Shown here piece after piece: positions 32,194-48,665 of a stretch of 64,000 nt of DNA (position 1 is the first letter of the stretch; the number at the start of each line of letters is the position of its first letter). The notes under the pieces are model-generated. The model saw only the letters and a list, made by a program, of their open reading frames with translations. It was not told the origin of the DNA and ran no database searches. The stretch comes from Pseudomonadota bacterium (GTDB lineage Bacteria; Pseudomonadota; Alphaproteobacteria; Rhodospirillales; Magnetospirillaceae). A program made the translations under genes and the position numbers. The stretch spans positions 1 to 64,000 of the forward strand of contig JAJZVW010000003.1 in the NCBI GenBank assembly GCA_021847015.1, read 5' to 3'.

Positions 32194-32214
32194 CCCCGGC
32201 AAAAAGTGCCGAGC
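32194..32214. promoter_or_regulatory. Palindromic operator/enhancer candidate (FlbD ftr-like) upstream of fliK
   Basis: This 21 bp site reads CCCCGGCAAAA-N2-TGCCGAG and matches a second site upstream of fliF (34437-34457) at nearly every position. It lies ~70 bp upstream of the sigma-54 -24 element of fliK, a normal distance for an enhancer bound by a sigma-54 activator. FlbD, encoded at 38414, is the obvious candidate. Confidence 0.55.
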
Positions 32215-32282
32215 GGCCGGCAAGCCGCCAATGCCGAGGCCGCTACCGCCCCGGATTCCCTGCCCTTTTCCCGTCCACGGCG

Positions 32283-32299
32283 CTGGCACGGCGCTTGCT
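32283..32299 (+). promoter_or_regulatory. Sigma-54 promoter of fliK
   Basis: The sequence CTGGCACGGCGCTTGCT fits the -24/-12 consensus (TGGCACG-N4-TTGC) without a mismatch, with GG and GC separated by ten bases. It starts 58 bp before the fliK ATG. Control by sigma-54 and the FlbD-type activator encoded downstream is inferred. Confidence 0.85.
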
Positions 32300-32340
32300 G
32301 AACCCTGTGGGCCAGAGATTTCGACGCGGGAAAGCGCACG

Positions 32341-34089
32341 ATGACCGTCTCCACGATCAAGAGCCTCGACAAAGCGGGTACGGCCTCCGCCGTTTCCGGC
32401 GCGCAATCGCAGACGGCCTCGACCGACACCGGCTTCGCCCTGGCCTTGCAGGATTCCCTGCGGATCGCGGCCTCGACGATGCTGCCATCGCTCGCAAACG
32501 GTTTGCAGAGCGGGCTGCAAGCGGCGCTCTCCTCGCCGACGCCCGCGCGGAGCAGCCATTCCCAGGCGAGCGACACATCCTCGTGGAAAGCCAATCCGGA
32601 CACCGGTTCGGGGGCTGCGGCATCGCAGCAGCAGCCTTGGGACCAGAGCGCCGATACCTTGCTGACGGCGACGACGGCCCCCTTCATTCCAAACCGTCCC
32701 GTCGTCGCGAAATCCCAGGACTCGACTGTGCCGGGTCGCAAGAACGGCGACGATCGCCACACGGACGGCGGCACCGCGGCAGCGCAGCAGACCCAGCCGC
32801 CGCAGCCGCAGCCGCAGCCGCAATCCCAGCCGCAACAACAAATTCAGCAGCCGGCGTCGGTTGCGGCCACGCAACCCCAGACGGCGGCCGCCGCAGCCGC
32901 GATAGCCGCCGCCACCGGCCAGCAGAATGGTTCCGCATGGCTGGCGAAAAACCAGGGCGGCGCCCAGCCGGGGCAAGCCCCCGTGCCGGCTTCGGCTCAA
33001 ACCCAGCCGCCATCCGGCAATCCGCAGCAAGCCCCTGTCGCCACGCAGGCTCAGGCCGCCACGCTGCCGCAGGCCCAGGGGCAGACCCAGCCGCAATCGG
33101 CGCCCGCCACGGCGGCCGACCAGCAGGCGAATTCCTTGGCGCGCACGTTGGCTGGCACCGGCGCAGCCCTCAAGGTCGAGGTGAAAACCGCGCCGGCCAG
33201 CCAACAGCAACCCGCCTCCCAGGATGCGGGAGCGGCAACGCCTGGAACGGCGGTTGCCCAACAGCCGGCACAGACCGTGCCGGTTGCCCCTTCATCGGCC
33301 ATTACCCAGGGTGACGGCCAGGGCCAGGGCCAGGGTGGCCAGGACCCGACAGGCGGCAACAACGCCAACCAGACCAACGACCAGGCCGCGCAACAGATGG
33401 CTGCCGCCGGCCAGGCCGCGGCCACCAGTGCGCCTGGCAAGGTCGGCGGGGATGCGCCTTCGTTCGAAGCCCAGGTGGCCGCTCAAATCGGCGGGGCCAA
33501 AGGCACGGGCGCGACCCAGCAAACCCAGGGGGCTCCGCAGGCCCAGCCGCTCGCCGGGCTGGGCGGCCCCGCGGGCGTCCAGGCGGCACAGAAGGCCGCG
33601 CCCACCCAGGCGGCGCAAGCCGCCACCCCGCCCAAGGCCCTGCCGCAGAATACGGTGATGGATCAGGTGTCGGTCGAGATCGGCAAGCATGCCGCGGACG
33701 GCACCGACCTGATCAAGGTGCAGTTGAAGCCCGCCGAACTGGGCCGCATCGAAATCAAACTCGAGGTCGGGCACGACGGCCAAGTGGCCGCGACGGTCAC
33801 CGCCGACAACAAGGACACCTTGTCCTTGCTGCAAAAGGACGCCTCGGGGTTGACCAAGGCGTTGGCCGACGCAGGCCTCAAGGCCGACACCGGCTCGTTG
33901 AGTTTCAACCTACGCGGCGAACAGCAGCAACAGCAGCAGGCCAGCGGAAACGATGGCGGACAGGGCCGGACGTCCGGCCGTCAGCGGGGCTTGGGCGGGC
34001 TGAATGCCGTTGGCGACGTCGGCATGGCCGCGGCGGTGGCACAGAACCGGCCATCGTCCGGGCGTTCGGGCGTCGACATCAGCGTTTGA
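32341..34089 (+). CDS. fliK: Flagellar hook-length control protein FliK
   Basis: This 582-residue protein has a long low-complexity Gln/Ala/Pro N-terminal region (ruler part) with PQPQPQPQSQ-type tracts. The C-terminal Flg_hook domain covers about residues 440-545 (VSVEIGKHAADG, DLIKVQLKPAELGRIEIKLEV, GQVAATVTADNKDTL). FliK is exported during hook assembly and switches the export gate to filament substrates. A CAG/CAA-rich stretch encodes EQQQQQQ near the end. Expression starts from the sigma-54 promoter just upstream. Confidence 0.93.
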   Translation: MTVSTIKSLDKAGTASAVSGAQSQTASTDTGFALALQDSLRIAASTMLPSLANGLQSGLQAALSSPTPARSSHSQASDTSSWKANPDTGSGAAASQQQPWDQSADTLLTATTAPFIPNRPVVAKSQDSTVPGRKNGDDRHTDGGTAAAQQTQPPQPQPQPQSQPQQQIQQPASVAATQPQTAAAAAAIAAATGQQNGSAWLAKNQGGAQPGQAPVPASAQTQPPSGNPQQAPVATQAQAATLPQAQGQTQPQSAPATAADQQANSLARTLAGTGAALKVEVKTAPASQQQPASQDAGAATPGTAVAQQPAQTVPVAPSSAITQGDGQGQGQGGQDPTGGNNANQTNDQAAQQMAAAGQAAATSAPGKVGGDAPSFEAQVAAQIGGAKGTGATQQTQGAPQAQPLAGLGGPAGVQAAQKAAPTQAAQAATPPKALPQNTVMDQVSVEIGKHAADGTDLIKVQLKPAELGRIEIKLEVGHDGQVAATVTADNKDTLSLLQKDASGLTKALADAGLKADTGSLSFNLRGEQQQQQQASGNDGGQGRTSGRQRGLGGLNAVGDVGMAAAVAQNRPSSGRSGVDISV

Positions 34090-34118
34090 GCGGGAAGGCC
34101 GAGGAGTAGGAGATCGCC

Positions 34119-34358
34119 ATGAGCGTATACGGCGCTTTGTTGAACGGCATCACGGCATTCTCGGGCGAATCGCTCGTGATCGATGACGGGCGGAACAGTC
34201 CGGCACGCATATTCCCCCCCGTCGGCCGAACCGAAGCGCCGGATATCGGCCGCGAGATCATCACCCTGGTCGCCCTGCAATCGGCCCATTCCGCCGCCGC
34301 CAGTGTCGCCGCCACGGCCGATGCCATGATCCGGACCCTCCTGCGTCCCCTGGCCTGA
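34119..34358 (+). CDS. Small protein resembling the C-terminal helix of rod/hook proteins
   Basis: This 79-residue protein lies 29 bp after fliK. Residues ~42-79 (DIGREIITLVALQSAHSAAAS... TADAMIRTLL) follow the pattern of the conserved C-terminal helix of flagellar rod and hook proteins (FlgC, FlgG, FlgE: D..E...L...Q.a..A...i.TAd.ml..ll). The N-terminal matching helix and the core domains are absent. It might be an accessory rod or export-related protein. The resemblance is by eye only. Confidence 0.6.
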   Translation: MSVYGALLNGITAFSGESLVIDDGRNSPARIFPPVGRTEAPDIGREIITLVALQSAHSAAASVAATADAMIRTLLRPLA

Positions 34359-34436
34359 AGCGCTTTCCCGCGCCCCCGCCCGCCGCCACTGCTTTCGGCC
34401 AGCCCCCTGCTTTTTCCTCCCCCAGGCGTTCGGGTC

Positions 34437-34457
34437 ACCCGGCAAAAGTTGCCGGGT
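34437..34457. promoter_or_regulatory. Palindromic operator candidate (FlbD ftr-like) upstream of fliF
   Basis: This is a perfect inverted repeat with 9 bp arms, ACCCGGCAA-N3-TTGCCGGGT. A TATAAA lies 12 bp downstream (34469-34474), so the site would cover the -35 area of a fliF promoter. In Caulobacter FlbD binds near fliF as a repressor, which this placement resembles. No sigma-54 promoter is visible here. Confidence 0.55.
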
Positions 34458-34555
34458 CGTTAACCTCGTATAAATCGAGCGGCGAATAGCCTGCATCTTC
34501 GGAGACCTCGCCTCTGCGGCGGGTCGGCATTCCGGACGCATGGGGTGGGACCGCC

Positions 34556-36220
34556 GTGAACGCTTTCCTTCAAATGCTGAAGGGCCTTGGGCCCATGCGG
34601 CTGGCGGCGATCGCCGGGGTGGGCGTGTCCATACTCGGCTTCTTCATTTATCTGATGAGCCGCGTTGCCGCGCCGCAGATGGAATTGCTTTACGGCGACC
34701 TTGACCTTGGCGATTCGAAAGCCATCGTAGAGAAACTGCAGGCGGACAAGGTCCCTTACGAAGTCCGCAAGGACGGCACCGAAATCTGGGTGCCGAAAGA
34801 CAAGAAAAATGAAATGCGCGTCGCGTTGGCCGAGGTGGCCGTCCCATCGACCGGACGGATCGCCGGCTACGAGCTGTTCGACAAGCAGGACGCGCTGATC
34901 ACCACCAGCTTCCAGCAGAACATCAACTACGTGCGGGCGCTCGAAGGGGAACTGGCGCGAACCATCCGTTCGATCGACAAGGTCCGGAACGCGCGCGTTC
35001 ACCTGGTGTTGCCCCAGCGTGAAGCCTTCTCCCACGACACGACCGAGGCTTCGGCGTCAGTGGTCATCAAGATGCAGGGCAACCAGCGCCTGCAACACGG
35101 CCAAGTGATGGCGATCCAGAACCTGATCGCCGCCGCGGTGCCGAAGCTGAAGCCCAGCCGCATCTCGATCATCGACGACAAGGGCACCCTGCTGGCGAGG
35201 GGGTTCGAGAACGACCAGGAGGCGATGGCCCAAACGGCGGAGGATCTCCGGCTCAACACCGAGAGCCGGCTGGCCCGGACCATCGAGGACATGCTCGAAC
35301 GCACGCTGGGACCGGGGCGAGTCCGCGCCGAGGTGTCCGTCGAGATGGACATGTCGCGCGCCGTGACCACAGAAGAGACCTACGACCCGGACAGCAAAGT
35401 GGTGCGCAGCGAGGTCACGGTGAACGAGGGCGAAAGCAACTCGGACGGCGAACCTCCGCCGGTGTCGGTGACCCAGAACCTGCCCGACCCCAACGGAGCG
35501 GCCGGCAGCAACAGCCGCTCGTCGTCCAAGTCGAGCAAGAACCAAGACACGGTCAATTACGAAATCTCGAAAAAGACGAAAAACACCGTGCGCGAGATGG
35601 GCGAAATCAAGAAGATTTCGGCCGCCGTGCTGGTGGACGGCACCTACGAGACGGGTGCCGACGGCAAGAAGGTCTACCGCGACCGCACCGCCAAGGAAAA
35701 GGACGAGATCGCCGCCCTCGTGCGCTCGGCGATCGGCTACGACAAAGACCGCGGCGATCAGGTCACCGTCGCATCCATGCAGTTCGCCGGCGGCGAAGAC
35801 CAGTACCAGACGGATGAAACCGGCGAATTCATCTTCGGCATGCGCCGCGACTTCGTCGAAAAGCTGGCGTCCAATCTCGGCCTGTCGGTAGTGGCGATCC
35901 TGTTCCTGCTGCTGGTGCTGCGCCCGCTCATCAGCCGGGCCATCGAGAGCATGCAGGCCGGTCCGATGGGCCCCGACGGGCGCCGCCTGCTTACGGCCGA
36001 AGGCGGCATGGTGCCCCAACTCGCCGGCCCCGGCGCTCCGCCGCTGCCCGCCCCTGCGCTGGGAGGCGAGGAAGAGGTGATCGCCGACGAGCTGATCGAC
36101 ATCGACAAGGTGGAGGGCCGCGTCAAAGCCTCCTCGATCCGCAAGATCGGTGAAATCGTCGACAAACACCCGGAAGAAGCCCTGTCGATCCTGCGCACTT
36201 GGCTCTACCAGGAAAGCTGA
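34556..36220 (+). CDS. fliF: Flagellar MS-ring protein FliF
   Basis: This 554-residue FliF has an N-terminal membrane helix (MRLAAIAGVGVSILGFFIYLM), then ring-building domains (GRIAGYELFDKQDALITTSFQQ in two parts, the YscJ/FliF region) and the FliF C domain. A second membrane helix (LSVVAILFLLLVLRPLI) follows, and a cytoplasmic end (ALSILRTWL) binds FliG. It starts with GTG preceded by GGGGTGGGA. It leads the fliFGH-fliN-flbD-flhAFG series. Confidence 0.96.
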   Translation: MNAFLQMLKGLGPMRLAAIAGVGVSILGFFIYLMSRVAAPQMELLYGDLDLGDSKAIVEKLQADKVPYEVRKDGTEIWVPKDKKNEMRVALAEVAVPSTGRIAGYELFDKQDALITTSFQQNINYVRALEGELARTIRSIDKVRNARVHLVLPQREAFSHDTTEASASVVIKMQGNQRLQHGQVMAIQNLIAAAVPKLKPSRISIIDDKGTLLARGFENDQEAMAQTAEDLRLNTESRLARTIEDMLERTLGPGRVRAEVSVEMDMSRAVTTEETYDPDSKVVRSEVTVNEGESNSDGEPPPVSVTQNLPDPNGAAGSNSRSSSKSSKNQDTVNYEISKKTKNTVREMGEIKKISAAVLVDGTYETGADGKKVYRDRTAKEKDEIAALVRSAIGYDKDRGDQVTVASMQFAGGEDQYQTDETGEFIFGMRRDFVEKLASNLGLSVVAILFLLLVLRPLISRAIESMQAGPMGPDGRRLLTAEGGMVPQLAGPGAPPLPAPALGGEEEVIADELIDIDKVEGRVKASSIRKIGEIVDKHPEEALSILRTWLYQES

Positions 36221-38413: not shown

Positions 38414-39796
38414 ATGCGCGTTCTGATCATCGGCTCGCTCGACGGGCAAATTGGCGCCGCCAGCCAGATTGCCGTGGCGCGCGGCGCCAAGGTCAGCGTC
38501 GCCGACGACATCGGCCCCGGATTGGAGGTCCTTCGCGAGGCGGGGGCGGATCTGGTGATGATCGACGTCAAGCGCGACATCAAGGCGCTGGTCGATTCCC
38601 TGGACGCCGAACGCATCCACGTCCCCGTGATCGCCTGCGGCATCGCGTCGGACGCCGCCGCCGCCGTCCGGGCGATCAAGGCCGGCGCCAAGGAATACAT
38701 CCCTCTGCCCCCCGACGCCGAGTTGATTTCCGCCGTGCTTGAAGCCGTGACCGCGGACGTCGGCGATCTTGTCTACAAGGACCCGCGCATGGGCCAAACC
38801 ATGCGCCTGGCCGAACAGGTGGCGAATTCCGAAGCATCGATAATGATCACCGGCGAATCGGGCACCGGCAAGGAACTGATGGCCCGCTTCATCCACCGCA
38901 AAAGCAAGCGCGCCAACAACCGGTTCGTCGCCGTGAATTGCGCGGCCATCCCCGAAGCCCTGCTGGAATCCGAACTGTTCGGCCACGAGAAAGGCGCCTT
39001 CACCGGCGCGGTGGCCCGCCGCCTGGGAAAATTCGAGGACGCCACCGGCGGGACGCTGCTGCTGGATGAGATTTCCGAGATGGATGTGCGCCTCCAGGCC
39101 AAGCTGCTGCGCGCCATCCAGGAGCGCGAGATCGACCGGGTCGGCGGCGCCCAGCCGGTGAAGGTGGACGTGCGGATCGTCGCCACCTCGAACCGGAACC
39201 TTGAGGACGAAGTGCGGCGGGGCGCCTTCCGCGAAGACCTGTATTATCGCCTCAACGTCGTCACTCTGGCCCTTCCCGCCCTGCGCGAACGTCCCCTCGA
39301 CATTCCGCTGCTGGCCGAACACTTCATCCGGAAATATGCGGAAGCCAACGGCATTCCGGCGCGGCCGCTGTCGGCGGACGCCCGGCACATGCTGGCGCGC
39401 CACAACTGGCGCGGCAACGTCCGCGAACTGGAAAACACCATGCATCGGGCCGTCTTGCTGTCCGGAGGGACGGAAATCACGCCCGATGCCGTTCTGCTGA
39501 ACGGGGGACCGATCGGCGGCGGCCAGGACATGGTCGTCGCCCAGGCCACCAGCGCCGCCGCCGCCGCCATAACCGGCGCAACCCAAATGGGCGGGCTTGT
39601 GGGCAAGACCGTCGCCGAGGTCGAGCGCGATCTCATCATCGACACCCTGATGCACTGCTTCGGCAACCGCACCCATGCCGCCACCATCCTCGGCATTTCC
39701 ATCCGTACGCTGCGCAACAAGCTGAAGCAGTACGCCGAGGAAGGGCTGGCCGTGCCCCCGCCGGCGGGCGGCGATGCCGAGCGGCCGGCACTCTGA
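38414..39796 (+). CDS. flbD: Sigma-54-dependent flagellar regulator FlbD
   Basis: This 460-residue activator has a receiver-like N-terminus, an AAA+ domain (Walker A GESGTGKE near 147; GAFTGA near 193; LLLDEISEMD) and a Fis-type helix-turn-helix (HAATILGISIRTLRNKLKQY). The receiver keeps an aspartate (VMIDVKRD) and a lysine (GAKEYIPLP) but has GS where the acidic metal pocket is expected, so control by ordinary phosphorylation is doubtful, as for Caulobacter FlbD. It probably activates the sigma-54 promoter of fliK and binds the two palindromes seen upstream. Confidence 0.92.
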   Translation: MRVLIIGSLDGQIGAASQIAVARGAKVSVADDIGPGLEVLREAGADLVMIDVKRDIKALVDSLDAERIHVPVIACGIASDAAAAVRAIKAGAKEYIPLPPDAELISAVLEAVTADVGDLVYKDPRMGQTMRLAEQVANSEASIMITGESGTGKELMARFIHRKSKRANNRFVAVNCAAIPEALLESELFGHEKGAFTGAVARRLGKFEDATGGTLLLDEISEMDVRLQAKLLRAIQEREIDRVGGAQPVKVDVRIVATSNRNLEDEVRRGAFREDLYYRLNVVTLALPALRERPLDIPLLAEHFIRKYAEANGIPARPLSADARHMLARHNWRGNVRELENTMHRAVLLSGGTEITPDAVLLNGGPIGGGQDMVVAQATSAAAAAITGATQMGGLVGKTVAEVERDLIIDTLMHCFGNRTHAATILGISIRTLRNKLKQYAEEGLAVPPPAGGDAERPAL

Positions 39797-47653: not shown

Positions 47654-47843
47654 GTTCCTGTCTCGCAGCACCGGGCCAGCGGCTGATTTAGCAGGCGCCC
47701 CCGCCGGCCGCAACGCCCGAAGCCCGCGCGGCCCCGGCCGATCTTGCAATCGCACCGAAAAGGGCATAGCTTAACCCCGATGGGTGAATCCGGTTTCCTT
47801 CAGAAGAAGGGCGCCGGCGGGCAAGCGTCAGAAGGAATGCACC

Positions 47844-48665
47844 ATGTCCGTCACAACCAACATCGCCACGCGCGTCAGTTCGATGTTCCCGAACTCGGCG
47901 AATCCGTGGTCGGCAATCTCCAAACTGGCCAGCGGTTCGAACATCGTCAACGCCTCGGACAACCCCGCGGGCTTGGCGATCGCCACCCAATTGCAGGGTA
48001 ACCTTACGGCGCTCGGCCAAGCCGGAACCAACGCCGCCCAGGGGTCCGCGATCCTGCAGACGGCCAGCGGCGGCCTGTCGGCCATCGGCGGCGTCCTGCA
48101 ACGGATGATGACTCTCGCCACCCAGGCGGCCTCGGGCAATGTCACCGACGCCCAGCGGGGCGACATCCAGACCGAATTCGCCAACCTCGGCACGGAGATC
48201 AACCAGATCGCCGGCCAAACCAGCTTCGGCGGCCAATCGCTGCTGAACGGCACCGGTCCGTTTGCCGGGGGGGTCAACTTCACCGTCGGCGCCCAGGCCA
48301 GCGACACGGTTTCGGTCAAGCTGGGTAACGCCACCACCGGAGCCGGCGGGCTGAACATCACCGGCAACGTGAGCACGGCGGCCAACGCCCAGGCGATGAT
48401 GTCGACGGTCAGCCAGGCCATCGGCACCCTGACCCAGATGCAGGCGTCGATCGGGGCGTCGCAATCCCAGTTCAACGCGGTATCCCAGTCGATCGGCACC
48501 ACTGCCGACAACGTCGATGCCGCGGCATCGAGCATCACGGCCGCCGACGTCGCCTTGCAAAAGGTGGCCATGACGACCTCCGACGTGAAGGCGCAGGCCC
48601 GTATCGCGGCTCTCACGCAGGCCAACAAGATGTCCCAGCACGTCATCAACCTGCTGAAATCCTGA
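47844..48665 (+). CDS. Flagellin
   Basis: This 273-residue flagellin has conserved D0/D1 ends: N-terminal ISKLASGSNIVNASDNPAGLAI and C-terminal helices through ARIAALTQANKMSQHVINLLKS. The N-terminus MSVTTNIATRVSSMFPNSAN differs from the usual 'MNTNxxAmxAlrnL' start. The centre is short, without a D2/D3 insert. An AGAAGGAA ribosome site precedes the ATG at 47844. No clear sigma-54 or sigma-28 promoter was found in the 190 bp divergent gap. Confidence 0.93.
   Translation: MSVTTNIATRVSSMFPNSANPWSAISKLASGSNIVNASDNPAGLAIATQLQGNLTALGQAGTNAAQGSAILQTASGGLSAIGGVLQRMMTLATQAASGNVTDAQRGDIQTEFANLGTEINQIAGQTSFGGQSLLNGTGPFAGGVNFTVGAQASDTVSVKLGNATTGAGGLNITGNVSTAANAQAMMSTVSQAIGTLTQMQASIGASQSQFNAVSQSIGTTADNVDAAASSITAADVALQKVAMTTSDVKAQARIAALTQANKMSQHVINLLKS

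Follow-up and report, generated by a model that had tools for sequence, protein, structure and literature searches.

A palindrome of FlbD type stands at the fliF promoter of the window (the whole stretch of 64,000 nucleotides analyzed here, from a contig of a Magnetospirillaceae bacterium), where it is conserved among relatives at a narrow spacing from a CtrA-like box and is tied to the presence of FlbD. A site of the same type lies upstream of fliK. We consider it likely that FlbD activates fliK through sigma-54 and represses a CtrA-driven fliF. FlbD, encoded downstream of the fliF promoter, would bind both sites. At fliK it would activate transcription from a sigma-54 promoter in the role of an enhancer-binding protein, and at fliF, where the CtrA-like box appears to overlap the −35 region of an ordinary (sigma-70 type) promoter, it would shut down the early operon driven by CtrA, probably by getting in the way of that protein or by making contact with it. 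If this operon reaches flbD, the arrangement would provide negative feedback and a handover from early to later flagellar genes.

Two FlbD-type sites in a flagellar gene cluster

The cluster includes fliK (positions 32341 to 34089, forward strand), which encodes the hook-length control protein (Pfam PF02120 Flg_hook, E = 8.8e-14), and fliF (34556 to 36220, forward strand, GTG start), which encodes the MS-ring protein (NCBIfam TIGR00206, 289.2 bits; cut-off, 129.75). Between them lies an open reading frame of 79 residues (34119 to 34358) that has no Pfam match and a partial match in 25 of 75 loci from the same order. On the 3' side of fliF follow fliG, a fliH-like gene (233.2 bits with its best NCBIfam model, slightly below the cut-off of 235), fliN, flbD, flhA, and a gene for an SRP54-type GTPase (flhF-like), where fliG and flhA are our reading of the sequence. 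The flbD gene (38414 to 39796, forward strand), some 4 kb past the fliF promoter, encodes the proposed binder of both sites. Its product matched NCBIfam NF050807 over its full length (residues 1 to 454) with 767.1 bits against a curated cut-off of 750, and carries a sigma-54 interaction domain (PF00158) and a Fis-type helix-turn-helix (PF02954, residues 400 to 440). Seven other strong sigma-54 activator domains were found in the genome, and a ctrA gene lies on the window's contig (NF045991, 410.2 bits; cut-off, 350).

The two 21-bp sites, CCCCGGCAAAAAGTGCCGAGC at 32194 to 32214 (fliK) and ACCCGGCAAAAGTTGCCGGGT at 34437 to 34457 (fliF), share CCCGGCAAAA-N2-TGCCG-N-G, and both lie at the coordinates given in the initial annotation. 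The fliF site is a nearly perfect palindrome (18 of 21 positions), and the fliK site is a weaker one (12 of 21) in which the inner GGCA-N5-TGCC is exact. That annotation also held that the idea of FlbD control would fail if the motif were not enriched near flagellar genes. By count there was no excess, a result that in part goes against the idea: with up to two mismatches the window had 19 occurrences of the motif where 14.9 were expected (16 of 100 shuffles reached 19), and CGGCA-N5-TGCCG occurred 23 times in the whole genome against 53 for a reversed control. Because the counts stood at chance level, we compared relatives, and this comparison showed that it is the position of the motif, not its number, that lies above chance. 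The co-occurrence with FlbD at fliF, the pairing with sigma-54 sequences at fliK, and the nearly unchanged FlbD reading helix, all described below, together make a convincing case in comparative sequence tests that both sites behave as FlbD sites.

At the predicted FlbD site of fliK (forward strand), the core GGCA-N5-TGCC occupies 32198 to 32210, and a GGCA half-site follows 21 bp further on (32219 to 32222). The site starts 86 bp before a sigma-54 promoter sequence, TGGCAC-N5-TTGCT, at 32284 to 32299 on the forward strand (TGGCACGGCGCTTGCT), which is the only exact match in the window; the placement at enhancer distance from a perfect sigma-54 promoter was thus correctly described from the start.

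At fliF, the predicted operator (34437 to 34457, forward strand; core, 34441 to 34453) would lie at about −62 to −42. A gap of 6 bp separates its core from a CtrA-like box, TTAA-N7-TAAA, at 34460 to 34474 on the forward strand, so that the promoter reads GGCAAAAGTTGCC, GGGTCG, TTAACCTCGTATAAA, and then TAGCCT (34487 to 34492, forward strand). The last hexamer is the likely −10 element, because 64 promoters, when aligned, favor T-A-N3-T at +27 to +32 counted from TTAA; with this −10, transcription would start near 34499 and TTAA would begin at −39. The box differs from TTAA-N7-TTAA at one position in eight (its second half is TAAA; most relatives have TTCA). In the initial annotation, the fliF site overlapped the likely −35 area just before a TATAAA promoter element. 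Neither part held up: the palindrome adjoins the CtrA-like box and is centered near −52, and TATAAA (34469 to 34474), rejected here as the −10, forms the end of TTAACCTCGTATAAA, a conserved box that had been missed. No sigma-54 match with up to one mismatch was found near fliF in the window, and a sigma-54 promoter at this gene was therefore rejected. The CtrA-like boxes of the genome, like the palindromes, were not enriched by count (TTAACN6TWHA was found at 10 places and its reversed control at 30). The window also holds a reading frame that we read as flagellin-like (47784 to 48665); the palindrome CGGCACTCGATGCCG starts 186 bp past its end, and no sigma-54 match was found near that palindrome.

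Conservation of the promoters and co-occurrence with FlbD

To compare fliF promoters across the order, we used 75 loci around flbD (L076 to L150), taken from FlbD matches in order genomes, with rows near contig edges and part of those from genera that were already represented left out. Twelve of these loci lacked a usable fliF start; the remaining 63 and the window gave 64 promoters. A plain TTAA-N7-TTAA box with at least 7 of 8 matches was present upstream of fliF in all 64, whereas among 1920 windows drawn at random from these loci 152 had one. The aligned layout consists of GGCAA-N3-TTGCC, 5 to 6 bp, TTAAC-N6-T-[TA]-[CTA]-A, 12 bp, and the T-A-N3-T preference; measured from where TTAA begins, the conserved −10 in this family of promoters follows at 27 bp. 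The inner palindrome was exact in 52 of the 64 promoters and matched at 7 or more of 8 positions in 56; the same number, 56, had such a palindrome starting 17 to 20 bp before a TTAA-N7-T-[AT]-N-A box, a box definition picked after the order alignment had been viewed. The second half of the box carried C (TTCA type) in 50 of the 64.

Eight order promoters (those of L091, L134 to L136, L141 to L143, and L145) had no site beside the box despite the presence of FlbD. The FlbD reading helix (ILGISIRTLRNKL and near variants) was nearly invariant across the order loci, including those without the fliF site, and an altered helix was therefore rejected as the cause of the missing sites. In L142 and L143 no palindrome stands beside the fliF box, yet sites are present at fliK; the repressing arm may thus have been lost in these two.

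The fliK comparison covered 18 other order genomes, namely 18 new regions, less two with no recognizable fliK (L477 and L478), plus L082 and L143. Of the 18, 17 (all but L483) had a sigma-54 sequence (up to one mismatch) close to the start of fliK, and in 16 at least one palindrome (7 or more of 8) lay 60 to 135 bp before it, the exceptions being L483 and L484. The same arrangement was found in 48 of 3720 control windows of 800 bp, which came from the same loci and may themselves contain fliK promoters. The Fisher test for this comparison used a hand count of 15 of 17, where the scripted count is 16 of 18. Tandem palindromes 19 to 24 bp apart were seen in 10 of the 18 fliK upstream regions.

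Other genes of the same genome may be FlbD/sigma-54 targets. An EF-hand protein gene on contig C48 (L014, 955 to 1371, reverse strand) is one candidate: its weaker sigma-54-like sequence (two mismatches) is preceded by a palindrome at a distance of 80 bp. The gene was found in 9 of 55 family genomes, including this one, and in 6 of the 9 a sigma-54 sequence (two mismatches at most) had a palindrome (7 or more of 8) 65 to 94 bp in front of it; in a control, a looser pair of palindrome and sigma-54 sequence (60 to 100 bp) occurred in 14 of 3360 random stretches. The other is a gene on contig C10 (L074, 7830 to 8260, reverse strand) for a low-complexity protein, P0001, of 238 residues, which is rich in Ser, Ala, and Gly, contains a His run, and has no Pfam or NCBIfam match; tandem FlbD-type sites (at −98 and −77) and an exact sigma-54 promoter lie upstream of it. 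Separately, sigma-54 promoters precede genes on contigs C8 and C23 (L017 and L021) that we read from their sequence as nifE-like and nifH-like, and so the organism may fix nitrogen.

A strict composite of operator and box (GGCAN5TGCC-N5/6-TTAACN6TWHA) was present in 179 of 297 order genomes and its reversed control in 2. Among 385 genomes of the class it was present in 46, of which 43 were from outside the order, and the control again in 2. Of 60 composite loci, the window included, fliF was present at 59; L191 had no fliF, and the best alignment to fliF in L161 was confined to the C-terminal part. A tighter composite matched at least 115 loci in named genomes, and fliF lay 20 to 250 bp downstream at 92 of the 115 listed. 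Among the first 80 of these, 65 had fliF at this distance, 9 of the other 15 bore titles from outside Alphaproteobacteria, and none of the 80 was titled Caulobacter.

The presence of the site followed that of FlbD. Among the 385 class genomes, 222 had FliF and 188 had FlbD at E of 1e-100 or less, an arbitrary cut-off; 184 had both, and 38, counted by hand comparison of lists, had FliF and no FlbD. From these we assembled 119 loci, comprising 30 FlbD-negative loci drawn from the 38 genomes and 89 FlbD-positive loci, about half of the 184, that were hand-picked after the composite search had been seen; four loci with less than 150 bp upstream were dropped, leaving 87 FlbD-positive and 28 FlbD-negative genomes. 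In the 350 bp upstream of fliF, an exact GGCA-N5-TGCC was present in 48 of the 87 FlbD-positive genomes, being missing in the other 39, and in 2 of the 28 FlbD-negative genomes (Fisher P = 5e-6, with kinship ignored). These two, L334 and L385, are incomplete (69% and 83%), and other members of their families have FlbD. A palindrome of 7 or more of 8 was found upstream of fliF in 70 of 87 against 7 of 28, although sites at this level often arise by chance (343 of 2370 stretches of 250 bp drawn at random held one). A count independent of the hand-picking, that of the strict composite, gave 44 of 184 genomes with FliF and FlbD against 1 of 38 with FliF and no FlbD (Fisher P = 0.0015, again with kinship ignored).

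Two positions of the operator were recognized in the class. In the first, as in the window, a palindrome (7 or more of 8) starts 17 to 20 bp before the box, and it was found in 43 of the 87 FlbD-positive genomes and in 1 of the 28 FlbD-negative ones. A second palindrome 20 to 23 bp further upstream accompanied it in 14 of these 43 class genomes against 2 of 56 in the order. In the other layout, the palindrome starts 24 to 25 bp after the start of TTAA, where it would lie over the −10. This layout was present in 13 of the 87 (7, plus one at +22, when the whole box was required) and in none of the 28, and most of its sites are 7-of-8 matches. The offsets +24 and +25 were used in 5 and 8 FlbD-positive genomes, respectively, against a mean of 0.54 per offset outside the peaks. 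Three FlbD-positive genomes had both layouts together, and 22 of the 87 had no box by the expression used.

Alternative readings of the fliF site

As read from sequence and by analogy, FlbD would act negatively at fliF. A site over the −10 fits a repressor, and it offers the best sequence-based reason to suppose repression in the upstream layout as well. Repression is further suggested by the Caulobacter precedent and by the absence of a sigma-54 match near fliF. Many activators work from near −52, and the position of the palindrome and its narrow spacing from the box would suit a co-activator; FlbD might then assist CtrA or RNA polymerase at fliF. We regard this as distinctly unlikely, as FlbD is an activator of the sigma-54 type and the window's fliF lacks a match with up to one mismatch to such a promoter, as the palindrome covers the −10 in other lineages, and as FlbD of Caulobacter represses fliF in published accounts. 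The regulator bound here could also be another one, since GGCA-N5-TGCC resembles the sites of NtrC-family regulators generally and the genome encodes seven further strong sigma-54 activator domains. The chance of an NtrC-like protein other than FlbD is nevertheless slim: the presence of the site tracks FlbD across the class, and the site recurs at fliK sigma-54 promoters. Finally, the lack of enrichment in window and genome would be expected of chance matches or of inherited sequence without function, an explanation that is barely credible beside fliF at 59 of 60 composite loci, a narrow spacing held across many families, and a reversed control found in only 2 of 297 order and 2 of 385 class genomes.

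Whether the box is CtrA's is a separate matter. Most relatives carry TTCA in its second half (C in 50 of 64) and the window carries TAAA, as might be the case for a plain −35 or the site of some other regulator. We think this unlikely, if less so than the readings above, because the box begins with TTAA, has a spacer of 7 bases, overlaps the −35, and is predicted to start at −39, all of which match the full CtrA motif of Caulobacter, and because the genome has a ctrA gene. Taking FlbD as the repressor and the box as CtrA's, a more specific mechanism can be put forward tentatively, as possible but somewhat short of probable: FlbD may be a direct anti-activator that touches CtrA at fliF, the operator having moved onto the −10 elsewhere. 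Direct contact between the two proteins would account for a palindrome kept 18 to 19 bp, more rarely 17 or 20 bp, before the box in many families of Alphaproteobacteria. If this is true, early flagellar genes would be shut off through two exchangeable geometries of one operator, in a device like that of SciP.

The Caulobacter switch and a proposed DNA module for it

The two-way FlbD switch is already known from Caulobacter. According to PMC3930126 and PMC3096577, CtrA activates early genes there, and FlbD acts through ftr4 to repress fliF and turns on class III and later sigma-54 genes, the initial annotation having likewise named FlbD as repressor of fliF and activator of later sigma-54 promoters; FliX governs the switch (PMC3096577). 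The further claim that the same switch is encoded in the window stands as to the sites, which in the comparison with relatives behave like FlbD sites, and as to the FlbD gene, with the geometry of the fliF site and the reading of its promoter corrected as above. The likeness to Caulobacter crescentus covers the regulator family, the two kinds of targets (ftr4 at fliF, the other ftr sites at class III/IV sigma-54 promoters), and fliF repression with later sigma-54 activation, which for our organism is a prediction; as to placement, ftr4 may stand upstream of the Caulobacter CtrA box, over the −10, or in some other layout.

According to PMC4287350, ctrA P2 of Caulobacter has a full CtrA box that starts at −39, and SciP motifs lie mostly at −60 to −90, with 49 of 61 such start sites also having a CtrA motif. 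The fliF promoter resembles the CtrA-activated class II promoters (TTAA-N7-TTAA near −35) in the type of box, the 7-base spacer, and the predicted −39. It differs from them in the second half, which reads TAAA in the window and TTCA in the majority of order promoters, and in the FlbD-type operator that stands beside the box at a nearly fixed distance. To SciP repression in Caulobacter it is alike in having a (here putative) repressor site upstream of CtrA boxes, whereas the protein and the motif are different (SciP, GCGNC-N5-GNCGC) and the partner here is a sigma-54 activator.

No description of a phased FlbD-CtrA module was found in the titles, abstract openings, and passages of open-licence full texts covered by the search. 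Three features did not appear there: the nearly fixed spacing of FlbD and CtrA elements, their occurrence across many families at fliF, usually as one copy in a genome, and the existence of two positions of the operator. The layout may be partly described in primary Caulobacter papers. The module gives exact bases for mutation and makes it testable whether FlbD represses by contact with CtrA or by blocking polymerase, and the motif can be used to predict FlbD regulons in unstudied bacteria. Our results suggest that the early-to-late flagellar switch of Caulobacter is written as a DNA module in many Alphaproteobacteria, one that joins the cell cycle regulator CtrA to the flagellar regulator FlbD, as a rule in one copy per genome.
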